DNA of 64,000 nt from assembly GCF_000374005.1 (NCBI RefSeq), contig NZ_KB893134.1, positions 48,894-112,893 of the forward strand, read 5' to 3'. Position 1 is the stretch's first letter. The number at the start of each line of letters is the position of its first letter. Of this stretch, positions 32,597 through 39,705 are shown piece after piece. This DNA comes from Kiloniella laminariae DSM 19542. Its GTDB lineage: Bacteria > Pseudomonadota > Alphaproteobacteria > Kiloniellales > Kiloniellaceae. The notes under the pieces are model-generated. The model did not search any database, was not told where the DNA came from, and saw only the letters and a list, made by a program, of their open reading frames with translations. The position numbers and the translations under genes are program-made.

Positions 32597-33391
32597 ATGA
32601 TGAAGAAGTCTACAGAATATAAGGAAGAGACTTTGTTTACTTCACCAGTTCGCTTGACCTCGCGCGCCGAATTTATGTCACCCCTAAATTTTTCTGGAAG
32701 CGCACTTTGCAAAAGCCTTCAGAACGGTTTGGCCATTCTGTCTTTGTCCCTGGCATTATTGACGCTGTTGAGCCCGACCAACGTCCAGGCAGAAGCAATA
32801 GACACCCCGCCAGCAGAAAAAACCAACCTGAGTGGGCTATCTCCGGATGAAGTTGCGATCGTCCGTCGGGTTGAAGTCTATCTGAACGAACTCAAATCCG
32901 TTTCTTCCCGTTTTCTTCAGGTTTCCAGCACCGGCAGTCTTGCTGAAGGACAACTGTTTCTGGAACGACCCGGCCGCATGCGGTTTGAATATGATGATCC
33001 CGTGCCAATCGTGATGATCGCCAATGGGGTGACCCTCCTTTATTTTGACAAAAAGCTGAAGCAGGCAACCTATCTGCCGCTCTGGAAGACACCCCTGTGG
33101 TTTCTGATCCGGGAAAAGGTCGAGCTGCACAAGGATATCCAGATTCTCCGGGCACAGGAATCCAGCAGTACTGTTCAGCTGGAACTACGTGCAGAAGGCG
33201 AGTCTGATGGAGCCCAGATGACCCTGCTTTTCAGTGACAATCCCCTGTCCTTACGTAAATGGGAAGTACTTGACGCGCAAGGTATTACAACACAGGTTTC
33301 CTTGATTGACCCCGTCTATGATAATCCGATTGATGAGACCGTTTTTAAAACTGACGATCTTGATATGAAACGCAAAAATAACGCTAAATAA
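32597..33391 (+). CDS. lolA: Outer-membrane lipoprotein carrier protein LolA
   Basis: Up to 264 residues. The signal peptide lies unusually deep (SLQNGLAILSLSLALLTLLS, then VQAEA near residue 58), so the Met at residue 27 (MSPLNFSG, at 32675) is a plausible true start; I keep 32597 because AAAGGA precedes it. The mature part has the LolA core: FLQVSSTGSLAEGQLFLERPG, then MRFEYDDPVPIVMIANG. It carries lipoproteins across the periplasm from LolCDE to the outer membrane. Position directly after ftsK is typical for the class. A terminator follows. Confidence 0.92.
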   Translation: MMKKSTEYKEETLFTSPVRLTSRAEFMSPLNFSGSALCKSLQNGLAILSLSLALLTLLSPTNVQAEAIDTPPAEKTNLSGLSPDEVAIVRRVEVYLNELKSVSSRFLQVSSTGSLAEGQLFLERPGRMRFEYDDPVPIVMIANGVTLLYFDKKLKQATYLPLWKTPLWFLIREKVELHKDIQILRAQESSSTVQLELRAEGESDGAQMTLLFSDNPLSLRKWEVLDAQGITTQVSLIDPVYDNPIDETVFKTDDLDMKRKNNAK

Positions 33392-34433: not shown

Positions 34434-35198
34434 ATGTCCCGATATCCCCTCCCTCTGGTTGGTGTTTCTTCCTGTGTACATAAAAGCGATACCCCCAAAC
34501 CATTCCATGCGGTGGACGACAAATATCTCAGGGCGGTTTCCCTATCGGTAGAAGCAATGCCTCTGGTCATCCCCGCGCTGGGAGAGCTTCTTGATATATC
34601 AGGCCTGGTCTCCAGACTTGATGGAATTATGCTCACGGGCAGTGCCAGCAATGTTTTTCCCGAGCGCTATAACAAAACACCGACCAAAGATGCTGAACCA
34701 TACGATTTGCAAAGAGATGAAACCACATTGCTTCTGATCCAGGAAGCTCTGCGCCAGGAAGTTCCTCTCCTCGCAATCTGTCGTGGCTTTCAGGAACTTA
34801 ATGTCGCCCTGGGAGGGAGTCTGCATCCGCAAATCAACAAGATAGAAGGGCGGATGGACCACAGCAGCCCAAACACCAACGAGATGGAAGTGGACTATGG
34901 CCCCAGCCATAACATTACTATCCAGGATGGCTGTCTGTTAAGGACAATTCTCAAAGCCGGTGAAGCCCAGGTCAATTCTTTGCACTATCAGGCAATTGAT
35001 CAGCTGGGAGATGGCCTTGTGATTGACGCTCAAGCTGCTGACGGAACAGTTGAAGCGATTTCTCTCCCACACCAGAAATCCTTCGTCCTGGGTGTCCAGT
35101 GGCATCCGGAATATAAATCGCTTGAAAATACCGTCTCTACTAAAATCTTTAAAGCCTTTGGTGATGCAGTGAGAGACCATTCAGCTCAACGACCTTAA
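34434..35198 (+). CDS. Class I glutamine amidotransferase-like hydrolase (peptidase C26, PuuD-like)
   Basis: 254 residues. The catalytic Cys is in LLAICRGFQELNVALGGSLH and the partner His-Glu in GVQWHPEYK, the C26 triad; GIMLTGSASNVFPERY forms the oxyanion region. The family hydrolyses gamma-glutamyl amides, for instance gamma-glutamyl-GABA in putrescine breakdown or gamma-glutamylated amines. No other puu genes are nearby. ATG 34434 is preceded by a weak AAGGC site. Confidence 0.88.
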   Translation: MSRYPLPLVGVSSCVHKSDTPKPFHAVDDKYLRAVSLSVEAMPLVIPALGELLDISGLVSRLDGIMLTGSASNVFPERYNKTPTKDAEPYDLQRDETTLLLIQEALRQEVPLLAICRGFQELNVALGGSLHPQINKIEGRMDHSSPNTNEMEVDYGPSHNITIQDGCLLRTILKAGEAQVNSLHYQAIDQLGDGLVIDAQAADGTVEAISLPHQKSFVLGVQWHPEYKSLENTVSTKIFKAFGDAVRDHSAQRP

Positions 35199-35365
35199 GC
35201 TTGGTACAAAAACAATCTTTCTTGGAAAGTCATATTTTCTCTGGAGTCTCGAACAATTTATGACTAATTAGCAGATAATCATGCCCTTATTATTGTTATT
35301 CCTTCCTATTTTACATATAATTATGAGATAATAATCCTAACACGTAAATTTTATCCACAGCTCCG

Positions 35366-35393
35366 TTGAAATCCCCACTGGATAGCTTATCTT
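35366..35393 (+). promoter_or_regulatory. Predicted sigma-70 promoter of the small RNA
   Basis: TTGAAA (35366-35371), 16 bases, TATCTT (35388-35393). The predicted start of transcription falls at about 35400, exactly where the first hairpin begins. Confidence 0.55.
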
Positions 35394-35399
35394 AGAATG

Positions 35400-35522
35400 A
35401 CGTCGCCTCCTACCTCACTCCTGGCGACGTATTCGGGAACTGGAATCCCCCCTCTGGTTCCTTGAAACTCTGCGAAGAAGCGGGAACACCTGGTTATCCC
35501 CCCAATCAGGTGTTCCTTTCTT
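35400..35522 (+). ncRNA. Predicted small RNA with three hairpins and C-rich (anti-Shine-Dalgarno-like) loops
   Basis: Three stem-loops in ~120 nt. Hairpin 1: ACGTCGCC (35400-35407) with GGCGACGT (35423-35430), loop TCCTACCTCACTCCT. Hairpin 2: GGAAC (35436-35440) with GTTCC (35457-35461), loop containing CCCCCCTC. Hairpin 3: GGAACACCTG (35483-35492) with CAGGTGTTCC (35507-35516), loop containing CCCCCC, followed by TTTCTTT, a Rho-independent terminator. A promoter match ends 7 bases before 35400. Alphaproteobacterial regulators such as the alpha-r14 and CcsR families expose CCUCC-type loops that pair with ribosome binding sites; this RNA has that layout, but I cannot assign it to one of them without a covariance search. 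Confidence 0.72.
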
Positions 35523-35636
35523 TGCTTTTGGATCCCTCTTTGGTATATTATTTTTATCAGACAGGTCCATACTAATAATCTGGCTTTATCGAGCACAAAA
35601 ACAGTATCATTCTCCATCCGAAACAAATAATTTAAA

Positions 35637-35663
35637 ATCATTTCGAATATGAAATGATATAAT
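35637..35663 (+). promoter_or_regulatory. Palindromic operator candidate over the -10 region of xth
   Basis: ATCATTTC, 6 bases, GAAATGAT is a perfect 8-bp inverted repeat (35637-35658) directly abutting TATAAT (35658-35663), 20 bases before the xth start codon. No matching -35 box is evident, so the promoter may need an activator or the palindrome may bind a repressor. Confidence 0.45.
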
Positions 35664-35682
35664 TTCGCATACGGAACATTTT

Positions 35683-36480
35683 ATGACGACACGTATTGCC
35701 ACTTGGAATGTCAACTCTCTCCGCCAGCGACTTGACCATCTGAAAGCCTTTACCGACAGCCATAAACCAGACGTGCTCTGTCTTCAGGAGACCAAGGTTC
35801 AAGACAGCGAATTCCCCGAAGATGATATTAAATCAATGGGATACAACACTGTTCTTTTTCACGGACAGAAAAGCTACAACGGCGTTGCAATTCTCTGCCG
35901 GAACAGCGTGGCTATGAGCGATCGTAAAGTCTGGTGTGACAAGGATGACCGCCGACACCTTATGGTGACTCTGCCCAACGGCGTACAGGTTCATAACTTT
36001 TATGTGCCATCAGGGGGACCCGTTCCGGATCCGGAACAAAATGACAAGTTCGCCCACAAGCTCTCTTTTCTTGAAGAAATGATTTCCTGGGCAGCAGAAC
36101 CCTCAATCCGCCAGGAAAAAATTATTCTGGTTGGGGATCTGAACGTTGCTCCGCTGGAAACGGATGTCTGGAACCACAAGAAACTTTTAAGATCCGTGGG
36201 GCACACTCTGCGAGAGAGTGAACTGATGGCGCGCCTAAAGTCTGCGGGTGACTTTACCGATGTTGGGCGACATTTTGTTCCTCCCGACCAGCCTCTCTAC
36301 AGCTGGTGGGGCTACCGCTACAAGCTTTCCTTTGCCAAGGACTACGGCTGGAGGCTGGACCATATTCTGGCAACCGAAGCCCTGCGCCCTCATCTTAAAC
36401 ATTTTGAAGTCGTCAAGGACACACGGAGTTGGGAAAAGCCATCCGATCATGTGCCGAATCTTGTCGATCTCGACCTCTAG
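35683..36480 (+). CDS. xth: Exodeoxyribonuclease III / AP endonuclease
   Basis: 265 residues, the EEP nuclease fold. Conserved elements are RIATWNVNSLRQRLDH, VLCLQETKVQDSEFP (metal-binding Glu), VGDLNVAPLETDVWN (catalytic Asp-Asn) and the C-terminal SDHVPNLVDLDL (catalytic Asp-His). It cuts DNA at abasic sites and degrades 3' ends in base excision repair. ACGGAA precedes the ATG by 7 bases. The gene is convergent with the cyclic-nucleotide-binding protein gene, 17 bases away. Confidence 0.96.
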   Translation: MTTRIATWNVNSLRQRLDHLKAFTDSHKPDVLCLQETKVQDSEFPEDDIKSMGYNTVLFHGQKSYNGVAILCRNSVAMSDRKVWCDKDDRRHLMVTLPNGVQVHNFYVPSGGPVPDPEQNDKFAHKLSFLEEMISWAAEPSIRQEKIILVGDLNVAPLETDVWNHKKLLRSVGHTLRESELMARLKSAGDFTDVGRHFVPPDQPLYSWWGYRYKLSFAKDYGWRLDHILATEALRPHLKHFEVVKDTRSWEKPSDHVPNLVDLDL

Positions 36481-36987: not shown

Positions 36988-39705
36988 TCATTCCGCAGCG
37001 ATGAGGCTTTTCAGAACTTTACCTTTGGTACTCAATTCACTATAGGCGCCACTTTCAACTATTCTGCCATTCTGCATCACAAAGACCTGATCGAAATGCG
37101 CAGCAAGTTCTGCTCTTTGCAGGGTCCACACCAGCCCCCGATCCCCCTGTGACTGGATAACAGCAGGTATCAGCCTGTTCTGGCTTTGAGAATCCAGCAC
37201 GGCCGCAGCTTCATTAAAAATCAGCAAATCAGGATTCTTGATAAGGCTTCGGGCCATGGCAAGCTTCTGGCGCTGTACCCCACTTAATCTTTTACCCCCG
37301 ACGCCGACGTTGTAATCCAGTCCAACCTCGATGACATCGGAACGCAAGCCAAGTTCATCCAGCAGCTCGGTAATCACTCTTCCAATCGTTTCTGCCGCCT
37401 CAGCGCGCCCATAGGCCAGTCGGCCAAAGAGGATATTATCCTGCAAGCTGGCAGCAGAGTTAAAGCGATCCGGATCATAAAACTCCACGGCATCAGGATC
37501 TTTCGTCACCAGCTTCTCGGCAAGAATTACACGCGCCGCCAGTGTTTTTCTCTCGACCTCTTCTGTCACAAGTCCAAGACGATGGCGAGCCTCGACATAA
37601 TCAAAAGGCAGATACATCAAAGCCTGTCTGTCTGCTTCTGTCAGATCAGAAAGACCTGATTTATCAACACGTTTTACAATTTTATCAAAATCGGGAAGAT
37701 CATCGGCAGAAATAAAACTGAACTGTTCGAAAAACGGATGTGTCGGGGGAAGCCCCGTAAAAAGCTCAACCATGGTCCGGGCGATTGAGACACCCATGTT
37801 GAGAATAGGTTCACGTAATTCGGCCTTTTGCACAGCTTCTCTCAAAATCGGCATGGAGAGAAGGTTATCCCCGGCATAGTCGTTTTTACGCGGCGTGCCA
37901 AAAAGCAAATTTTCCCGAAGGGTTGCGTTTTTGTTATAACTTTCCGGATCAAAGGCAATCACCAGATCTTCCGCCCCGATTACCTTGAGATGTTCTTTCA
38001 AGGCAATCCGCGCACCCAGAATACTTTCGGCAATTTCGGGGCGATACTCGGCATCGACAGTACCGCTTAGCCCAAAGCGATAGACGTCCTCCTCCAGATC
38101 AACCTTCTGGAGCACATCAACCACGCGACTGATCAATTGGGTCTGGTCCGCAATCCCTGCAACCTTGTAGTCAATCCACTCTCCATTTGGACTGAGGACG
38201 GTATTGCCTGTCCGAAGTGCCTCTGATCGCTCCCGTTCAATTTCTTTGGGGTCTATCGGCTCAGCGGTGTTGTCATTCAACATCCAGTTGCGCAGGCCAT
38301 AAAAAAGATTATCCCGAACCGAAAGCGGGAAAAGATAGGCATCCTGGCCCACATAAGACAAACGACGTCCGGTAATCGCCGAGGGTAATTTTACCAGAGG
38401 CTTGCCGCCAATCTTGACCGAACCATTGCTCGGCTGAACCAGATTGGCCAGCATAAGGCCCAGATATTCCTTGCCACTGCCAGCATTACCAACAATCGCG
38501 ACGTTCTGCCCGACGCCGAAAGAAACATTGATCGTGTCAAGAAGCCGGTTCTCATTTTCATCAACCAGACTCAGATTACTGATTTCAACCTTGCCCGTAA
38601 GGGGGTCACCCCGTTCTTTTTCAGCCTGCTGCATTTCGGAAAGGATCAGGCCATGGGGCTGGAACTGCTCAGCGACCTGCTCATATTTGATCTGAACATC
38701 ATTGCGTTGCTGATCCCAGTTGATCAGGTCTTTCACCGGAGGCGGCAAATCCTTGTAAGCCGCGAGAACCGCCACCAGAGTTCCGATTTCAAACTGCCCT
38801 GTAATGACCAGATACCCCCCTCCGAGATAAAAGATAAAGGGCGTTACCTGAGCCAGTAGATTGTTCAAAAACTTCACAAAAAACTTGCGTTGATAGATCT
38901 CGTAACGGATCGAAAAGATCTTGCCCAGGCGGCTGGAAATTTCGGCGCGTTCATAATTGGTTGTATCGTGGGACTGGATCTCGATTGCCCCTTCAACCAG
39001 CTCTGCAACCCGCCCGGCCAAAGCCCGCGCCGTCATCTGGCGCTGCCGGCCCAGAGTAAGAATGCGTTTCCGCAAACGGGGAATAAGGAAAGCCTGTACC
39101 AGCACAATCGACATTGCCACCAGTCCGAGCCACCAGCTTTGTACCATAATAAAGATCATCGCCGTCAGGGCCTGCCCCCCCAGGAAAACCGGGGTAACAA
39201 AGGCATCGCCGATAAACCCGCCAAGCGGTTCAACCTCGTCCTTGATCATGGTCGCGATCTCGGCCTGTTTTATTTTTCGGCTGTGCAGAACCGGAAAGCG
39301 AAGAATACGATCTGTCAGCTCATAGCGCAGCCGGCGCAACATCCGCTCACCCAAACGTCCCTTGAGTGTATTGATCACAAACTTGAAGACGCCATTGATC
39401 AGAACAAGAGACAAAAATGACAGACAGAGCGCAAGCAACAGGGGAAGCTGCGTCAGCATAAAGCCTTCGAAGAGTGTGACGGGATGACCAAAAATTGCTT
39501 CGCCATAAGGAAGCTCAAACTGCATAAACGGCAAGGTCGCGGCAGGGTCCGAGAAAACTTCTGAACTGACTGCCTTGTTGATAATGCTTTTGGGCAGATC
39601 CAGGGACAGAAAATAAAAGGGCATGGAGATCAGCACAAGGATCAGAATACCTATCTGGTCTTTCCGACTGTGCCGCCAGATATATTTGAAAAGTTCCGGT
39701 TCCAT
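36988..39705 (-). CDS. ABC transporter permease-ATPase with degenerate, expanded nucleotide-binding domain
   Basis: 905 residues, far longer than the ~600 of a half-transporter. Residues 20-325 form the six-helix exporter-type membrane domain. The ATPase part has Walker A at 406-413 as GNAGSGKE (Glu in place of the Ser/Thr that binds Mg2+), a Q-loop at 454, then ~340 residues before the signature LSGVQRQ (807-813). Walker B is LLIFNEA with Asn831 for Asp, and Gln863 replaces the switch His. The insertion repeats the post-Q-loop motif: LSVRDNLFYG (461-470), ATLRENLLFG (594-603), ASLQDNILFG (752-761), the last two preceded by DPESYN and DPDRFN. ATP hydrolysis is doubtful; it could bind ATP only. 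It is coupled with the cNMP-binding gene and diverges from the glycosyltransferases. Confidence 0.88.
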   Translation of the reverse strand: MEPELFKYIWRHSRKDQIGILILVLISMPFYFLSLDLPKSIINKAVSSEVFSDPAATLPFMQFELPYGEAIFGHPVTLFEGFMLTQLPLLLALCLSFLSLVLINGVFKFVINTLKGRLGERMLRRLRYELTDRILRFPVLHSRKIKQAEIATMIKDEVEPLGGFIGDAFVTPVFLGGQALTAMIFIMVQSWWLGLVAMSIVLVQAFLIPRLRKRILTLGRQRQMTARALAGRVAELVEGAIEIQSHDTTNYERAEISSRLGKIFSIRYEIYQRKFFVKFLNNLLAQVTPFIFYLGGGYLVITGQFEIGTLVAVLAAYKDLPPPVKDLINWDQQRNDVQIKYEQVAEQFQPHGLILSEMQQAEKERGDPLTGKVEISNLSLVDENENRLLDTINVSFGVGQNVAIVGNAGSGKEYLGLMLANLVQPSNGSVKIGGKPLVKLPSAITGRRLSYVGQDAYLFPLSVRDNLFYGLRNWMLNDNTAEPIDPKEIERERSEALRTGNTVLSPNGEWIDYKVAGIADQTQLISRVVDVLQKVDLEEDVYRFGLSGTVDAEYRPEIAESILGARIALKEHLKVIGAEDLVIAFDPESYNKNATLRENLLFGTPRKNDYAGDNLLSMPILREAVQKAELREPILNMGVSIARTMVELFTGLPPTHPFFEQFSFISADDLPDFDKIVKRVDKSGLSDLTEADRQALMYLPFDYVEARHRLGLVTEEVERKTLAARVILAEKLVTKDPDAVEFYDPDRFNSAASLQDNILFGRLAYGRAEAAETIGRVITELLDELGLRSDVIEVGLDYNVGVGGKRLSGVQRQKLAMARSLIKNPDLLIFNEAAAVLDSQSQNRLIPAVIQSQGDRGLVWTLQRAELAAHFDQVFVMQNGRIVESGAYSELSTKGKVLKSLIAAE

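Follow-up and report, generated by a model that had tools for sequence, protein, structure and literature searches.

Among the described small RNAs (sRNAs) of Alphaproteobacteria, the closest counterpart of the element analysed here is RusT (CCNA_R0199) of Caulobacter crescentus, described in 2024 as a 118-nt RNA between lolA and xth (PMC11005374). In the available portions of that report, RusT folds into four stem-loops, with SL4 as a likely terminator; the SL2 loop (nt 45–57, including C53) is the seed, and SL3 (nt 73–84) changes on addition of Hfq. According to the same portions, RusT is induced by iron chelation and by zinc, NtrX occupies its promoter, and reporters for TonB receptors and ompW are repressed in an Hfq-dependent manner; they further cite DnaA sites from prediction, a GcrA peak from ChIP and expression under cell-cycle control, and mention homologs in Caulobacteraceae only (PMC11005374). 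Among the papers listed by searches of the open-access literature for RusT and for sRNAs linked to xth or lolA, subscription papers being outside their scope, none reports this RNA beyond Caulobacteraceae, and the accessible parts of PMC3927594 and PMC7685610 contain no xth-linked sRNA.

C-rich or pyrimidine-rich loops are found in several other RNAs of the class. As far as its report is accessible, αr14 (NfeR1) of Sinorhizobium is 123 nt long, has three main hairpins with pyrimidine-rich loops, is defined by an identical CCUCCUCCC in all three hairpins and is described as Hfq-independent (PMC10746234). The RNA in the window (the whole 64,000-nt stretch of DNA under analysis) is similar in length, in its three main hairpins and in its pyrimidine-rich loops, but these loops, UCCUACCUCACUCCU, AUCCCCCC and AUCCCCCC, all lack CCUCCUCCC. 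The CcsR RNAs of Rhodobacter have C-rich loops, as the window RNA does. In the part of the literature available on them, CcsR RNAs arise by processing of a transcript that also carries a DUF1127 gene (PMC10253847); RNAs of the CcsR/cuckoo kind are linked to such a gene, whereas the neighbours in the window are a C26 peptidase gene (PF07722) and xth (PF03372). Finally, the accessible text on GsrN of Caulobacter describes a C-rich loop with six cytosines, a feature shared by the window RNA, which pairs with a G-tract in the target leader; GsrN activates katG, and its homologs are typically encoded close to the general stress locus and have a sigma-EcfG site, although gsrN of C. crescentus itself lies away from that locus (PMC5869019).

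Promoter, fold and anatomy of the element

The sRNA, a probable RusT-family member by its fold, its match to model R3 and its covariation, is predicted to span positions 35400–35524 of the forward strand (~125 nt, both the 5′ and the 3′ end being predictions). A promoter scan found TTGAAA (35366–35371, +) and TATCTT (35388–35393, +) upstream of it, separated by a 16-nt spacer. By itself this match is little proof, since four promoter-like sites occurred on the two strands of a 511-base region against 1.6 expected. The promoter that the earlier note had claimed is nevertheless present and conserved: it is kept as TTGAAA or TTGAAT in eight genus genomes, the −10 element recurs in relatives, and TTGTAA-16-TATCTA stands at the same place in 4/4 genomes of the sister genus g4. 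The EcfG promoter motif, GGAAC...CGTT, is absent at the window promoter by inspection, the site there being TTGAAA-16-TATCTT.

Three further candidate identities were rejected, each against the part of its report that was available. GsrN has a different locus from that of the window RNA (C26, xth), whose promoter is of a non-EcfG type (PMC5869019); αR8/SisA carries UUUCCUCCCU and adjoins an FGase gene (PMC12559287); and EcpR1 has another locus and motif (PMC4414408).

Positions 35396–35530 fold at −58.6 kcal/mol, compared with −31.4 kcal/mol (sd 3.4) for shuffled sequences (z −8.0; 0/200 as stable). In this fold, SL1 (35400–35430, +) consists of an 8-bp stem (35400–35407/35423–35430) and a 15-nt loop, TCCTACCTCACTCCT in the DNA and UCCUACCUCACUCCU in the RNA, that resembles an anti-Shine-Dalgarno sequence. 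SL2 (35432–35466, +; stem 35432–35444/35453–35466) exposes a C-rich loop at 35445–35452 (ATCCCCCC in the DNA, AUCCCCCC in the RNA), which is the presumed seed, AUCCCCCCUC corresponding to RNA nt 46–55. SL4 (35482–35517, +; stem 35482–35495/35504–35517) carries the same loop at 35496–35503 and is followed by a T-rich stretch, the U-rich tail of the RNA. It is the sole terminator-like site in the 511-base region, where 0.3 were expected, in keeping with the claim of the earlier note that the last hairpin is a Rho-independent terminator. That note had also counted three stem-loops; SL1, SL2 and SL4 of the window fold bear this out, but relatives add a fourth, so that the anatomy comprises SL1, SL2 with a UCCCCCC loop, a tiny SL3, and the terminator SL4, again with a UCCCCCC loop.

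The SL3 segment, CUCUGCGAAGAA (35468–35479, +; RNA nt 69–80), is invariant in 12/12 genomes of two genera. In relatives it forms a very small hairpin (UCUC-CGCG-GAGA, UCUC-UUCG-GAGA), whereas in the minimum-energy fold of the window 35472–35479 pairs with the U-rich tail at 35518–35525 instead. SL3 therefore rests on the relatives, since the window's own fold pairs the segment partly with the U tail; in the class-wide alignment A8 (see below), 84.9% of its cells are paired and 4/4 pairs show double changes.

Conservation and covariation

A DNA search recovered the element at E below 1e-58 in eight of the nine genus genomes, the one without a match (G005) being 77% complete, and at E of about 1e-7 in all four genomes of g4. 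In the genus alignment, the upstream DNA is divergent until ~50 nt before the start, and promoter and RNA are conserved from there on. The sequence of the SL2 stem has been replaced between the window genus (g1) and g4 with its pairing preserved, while UCCCCCC in the SL2 and SL4 loops and the 12-nt linker CUCUGCGAAGAA are unchanged, except that G002 has a U-to-C change in the SL4 loop and G001 an additional A next to it. SL1 of g4 and other lineages differs from that of the window genus, so the SL1 loop with its CCUCC-like motif is a genus-level feature. The C-rich loops on which the earlier note had placed weight are accordingly of two kinds: those of SL2 and SL4 are widely conserved, but the C-rich SL1 loop was seen in the window genus only.

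In a plain MAFFT alignment of 12 sequences, 9 of them distinct (A5), 98.3% of cells were paired, against 89.9% in shuffles, and double changes occurred in 7/20 pairs; taken alone, A5 fails against the shuffles on two of five measures, namely the number of double-change pairs (reached by 64/500) and further pair types (500/500). The corresponding figures were 95.4% against 81.2%, with double changes in 15/26 pairs, for 27 sequences from the window's order, 26 of them distinct (A6), and 92.9% against 72.8% (sd 0.9) for 37 sequences of which 17 belong to the order and 20 do not (A8); the A6 and A8 counts lean towards structure because both alignments were fitted to earlier models, and the A8 rows outside the order were picked for synteny. 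None of 500 shuffles matched A8 on any of the five measures, and sliding the partner left at most 50.4% of its cells paired. Both sides had changed in 22/26 pairs of A8. Further, many A8 columns contain G-U pairs, which form on the sRNA strand only. Judged from these alignments, the window RNA belongs to a family of conserved loops with fast-changing stems. The RNA is real, and the covariation of its stems bears out the claim that it is an independent sRNA.

The locus and its distribution

The gene order in the window is lolA, a hydroxylase gene on the opposite strand, C26, sRNA and xth. Three of these genes serve as syntenic markers: lolA (32597–33391, +), with PF03548 at G000:C1:81781-82245 (window 32888–33352); the gene for a C26 peptidase or class-I glutamine amidotransferase (34434–35198, +; PF07722); and xth, encoding exodeoxyribonuclease III (35683–36480, +; PF03372), which is found near the RNA in relatives.

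Three successive models, R1 to R3, trace the RNA outwards from the genus. Model R1 matched 50/61 genomes of the window's order at E ≤ 0.1, with a single match in each except for two in G002 and G025, and all 18 order loci L033–L050 have C26 and/or xth, 14 of them both. With model R2, 39/385 genomes of the class matched at E ≤ 0.01, and lolA, C26 or xth accompanies 24 of the 27 new class loci L051–L077, the misses being L055, L057 and L067. Model R3 matched 98/385 class genomes at E ≤ 0.05 and, by hand count, 63/385 at E ≤ 0.001, training genomes included in both figures; under strict filters it gave no match at E ≤ 0.05 in the other 287, and its weak matches may be ordinary terminators. Among 20 R3 matches outside the training set, taken in list order (E 4.5e-7 to 1.8e-4) and skipping G064, a locus known without synteny, and second matches in G349 and G146, 16 have lolA, C26 or xth no more than 2.5 kb away; L181, L185, L193 and L195 do not. 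C26 adjoins the sRNA in many class loci too. The single R3 match in the window, at 35431–35525, scored 69.1 bits, the window copy (L027) being among the 37 training rows of the model. Viral contigs scanned with Xth yielded no confirmed relative.

The Rfam scan that the earlier note had proposed returned only a tRNA in the window at the gathering threshold and matched the sRNA to no family. At E-values up to 10, positions 35300–35600 gave three sub-threshold matches, one to a snoRNA family and two to microRNA families, which were taken as chance. In Rfam 15, the sRNA was likewise unmatched at threshold in 18, 20 and 6 loci of relatives, the last six being from Caulobacteraceae.

The position of the sRNA between C26 and xth, on their strand, could suggest an element acting in cis, namely the 3′-terminal part of the C26 transcript or a 5′ leader or attenuator of xth. 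We consider this very unlikely, as the sRNA has a promoter of its own, conserved where the DNA further upstream is divergent, and a strong terminator ~165 nt 5′ of the xth start. Further, the detected neighbours vary in relatives (lolA only, C26 only, or xth further off) while the RNA stays, and Caulobacter produces RusT as a discrete RNA according to the available portions of its report (PMC11005374).

Probable identity with RusT

The window element is, with high likelihood, orthologous to RusT of Caulobacter: an sRNA of ~125 nt, transcribed independently, at a lolA-(C26)-sRNA-xth locus that is ancestral in Alphaproteobacteria. This link, which very probably holds, is based on structure, conservation, covariation, synteny and positional match. 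Like RusT, the window sRNA lies between lolA and xth on the same strand and has four stem-loops, with SL4 as the terminator, the lengths being 118 nt and, as predicted for the window, ~125 nt. The conserved C-rich SL2 loop lies at nt 46–55 in the window RNA and the RusT seed at nt 45–57, positions that are similar and not identical, while the SL3 segment at nt 69–80 is close to the Hfq site of RusT at nt 73–84. The two differ in the loop itself, AUCCCCCCUC in the window against UAUCCCCUCCC, the latter taken from C. segnis, whose RNA 5′ of xth has it at nt 46–56 if the start site is as assumed. In addition, the terminator loop is C-rich too in the window and SL1 has its anti-SD-like loop, C26 and the hydroxylase gene separate lolA from the RNA, and the SL1 and SL3 sequences differ from those of Caulobacter.

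Model R3, which was trained without Caulobacteraceae, was run with filters off on 19 loci chosen for variety among 80 named Caulobacteraceae loci, these 80 having been kept from one scan of genome contigs; lolA lies upstream on the same strand in 68 of the 80. In 18 of the 19 the top match was sense-strand and lay 5′ of xth, in 17 of them within ~305 nt of the gene; that of L104 was ~1.1 kb 5′ of xth, and L117 failed. E-values were 4e-5 for Brevundimonas, 0.001 for Phenylobacterium and 0.017 for C. segnis, and four other Caulobacter loci gave weak values of 0.042–1.4 (1.4 for a Caulobacter MAG). In these searches the Caulobacter scores are each weak, and placement near xth is the consistent part. 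When R2 was run over 40 genomes of Caulobacteraceae (family f70, so taken from CtrA identity and close Xth relatives), 18 matched at E ≤ 1; most of these matches are ordinary terminators, because only L092 among the 15 loci checked lies at lolA-xth.

The earlier note had pointed instead to αr14 and CcsR, and an sRNA distinct from RusT, akin to αr14, cuckoo and CcsR in its C-rich anti-Shine-Dalgarno character, could have arrived at this place by convergence. The anti-SD-like stretches in the SL1 loop UCCUACCUCACUCCU and the three main hairpins and 123-nt length of αr14, as given in the accessible part of its report (PMC10746234), speak for such a kinship. Against it, CCUCCUCCC is absent from every loop, no Rfam family matches at threshold, the sister genus has no C-rich SL1 loop, and the neighbours are C26 and xth rather than a DUF1127 gene. 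Synteny and anatomy favour RusT, and convergence, mostly ruled out by locus and motif, appears most improbable. A gene for a small protein or leader peptide has a negligible chance: an ATG at 35397 in the window opens a short frame across SL1 and SL2, but four of eight genus genomes (G007, G003, G004, G008) have no ATG, GTG or TTG in the first 60 nt, indels shift the frame and substitutions follow base pairing.

Being very probably the same gene as RusT, the window sRNA makes it very probable, on sequence comparison, that RusT-type RNAs are older and more widespread than reported. A class-wide family at one syntenic locus, unmatched in Rfam 15 at the loci scanned, can now be annotated by covariance model.

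Proposed mode of action and candidate targets

By analogy with RusT, the function inferred for the window RNA is that of an Hfq-assisted base-pairing repressor; the global reach that the earlier note had proposed for it is conjectural. The sRNA would be made under stress (of metal or envelope), Hfq would bind it near SL3, and the C-rich loop of SL2, possibly along with that of SL4, would pair with G-rich ribosome-binding regions; such pairing would repress translation. No hfq gene turned up on the four contigs searched, which hold part of the genomes only.

The main target classes of RusT, TonB receptors and OmpW, are nearly absent from the window genome, a further difference between the two systems. 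A single Plug-domain receptor was detected there at E ≤ 1e-5 (G004 has five), its leader has no G-run, and OmpW is missing there, 2/6 genus genomes having one; TonB-receptor and OmpW targets were rejected on these grounds. With one Plug receptor and no OmpW, the RusT regulon of Caulobacter cannot carry over, and the target set in the window genus must differ largely from that in Caulobacter. Repression of TonB receptors and OmpW is a regulon property of C. crescentus and does not define the gene. The ancestral target becomes a testable question, given that the RNA stays under strong constraint in a genome that has a single Plug receptor and lacks OmpW. As a separate observation, the leader of the conserved TonB receptor at L231–L235 has a repeated CAGCCAGC-type sequence, which we take to be perhaps part of a cobalamin riboswitch.

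Complementarity to the loops was sought in 249 start regions, those of genes whose orthologs occur on two or more of the contigs compared; these were one contig of the window genome (G000) and contigs from three relatives on which the RNA is present too, or about a fifth of the genome. The SL2 seed gave no overall enrichment in the 249 start regions, with 17 genes at −9 kcal/mol or better against 8–27 for 12 shuffled seeds. The SL1 loop was hardly above shuffled loops: 2/249 genes reached at least 7 nt, where 1.3 were expected, and none reached 8. Patterns of the type G6-N-ATG are of no use because they are too common, with 250 in G000 and 116 when the pattern is reversed. G000 contains 20 copies of TTGGGGGGAT and none of its reversed control, a control that is unfair for coding DNA because it contains a stop codon triplet.

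The best candidate target, as judged from sequence complementarity, is the leader of parA (soj-type), which lies outside the window at G000:C1:118822-118831. UUGGGGGGAUU stands directly before the parA start in all four genomes compared and is a perfect complement of 10–11 nt to the SL4 loop region and of 9 nt to SL2, although G-rich Shine-Dalgarno sequences favour matches of this kind and about a fifth of the genome was compared. With 100 shuffled loops, a match of 10 nt never arose in the SL4 test, where two loops gave 9 nt; in the SL2 test, a single loop gave 9 nt. The duplex of the parA leader with SL4 is calculated at −25.9 kcal/mol, excluding the cost of opening the top of the terminator. 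TTGGGGGGAT precedes parA in 7/9 genus genomes, with one base different in G005 and G008. The complement is not kept in the sister genera, where g4 has UAGGGGA in 4/4 genomes and g2 has UUGGGGAU in 3/8. The available portions of the C. crescentus studies do not have parA in the list of RusT-responsive transcripts (PMC11005374) and give shkA, not parA, as the predicted target of R0199 (PMC5988900).

Next after parA among the SL4-loop matches ranks the leader of a 905-aa ABC transporter gene in the window (36988–39705, −), which reads GGGGGAU in 4/4 genomes compared.

A DnaA-box match, TTATCCACA (35351–35359, +), which we take to be a perfect consensus, lies 6 nt upstream of the −35 element. It precedes the promoter in 8/8 genus genomes, and TTTTGCACA lies upstream in 4/4 g4 genomes; within 160 nt upstream of SL2, 0/31 loci of other lineages have such a match. 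A speculative and rather unlikely extension of the RusT assignment would be that the RNA is wired into the chromosome cycle in the window genus, with a DnaA box 5′ of its promoter and C-rich loops that would cover the parA ribosome-binding region, tuning chromosome partitioning under stress. Such wiring would also account for the strong conservation of the RNA where most of the Caulobacter targets are missing. Against it stand the fact that sister genera do not keep the pairing and, as far as the accessible record for C. crescentus goes, the absence of parA from the RusT-responsive transcripts.

Just 5′ of xth, the window contains two TTYCGNATNYGRAA palindromes, at 35641–35654 and 35663–35676, 22 bp apart. 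Two to four copies (with up to 2 mismatches) are found in 8/8 genus genomes, and one weak match or none in two sister-genus loci checked. From this distribution, the palindromes look like a lineage-specific operator of xth.
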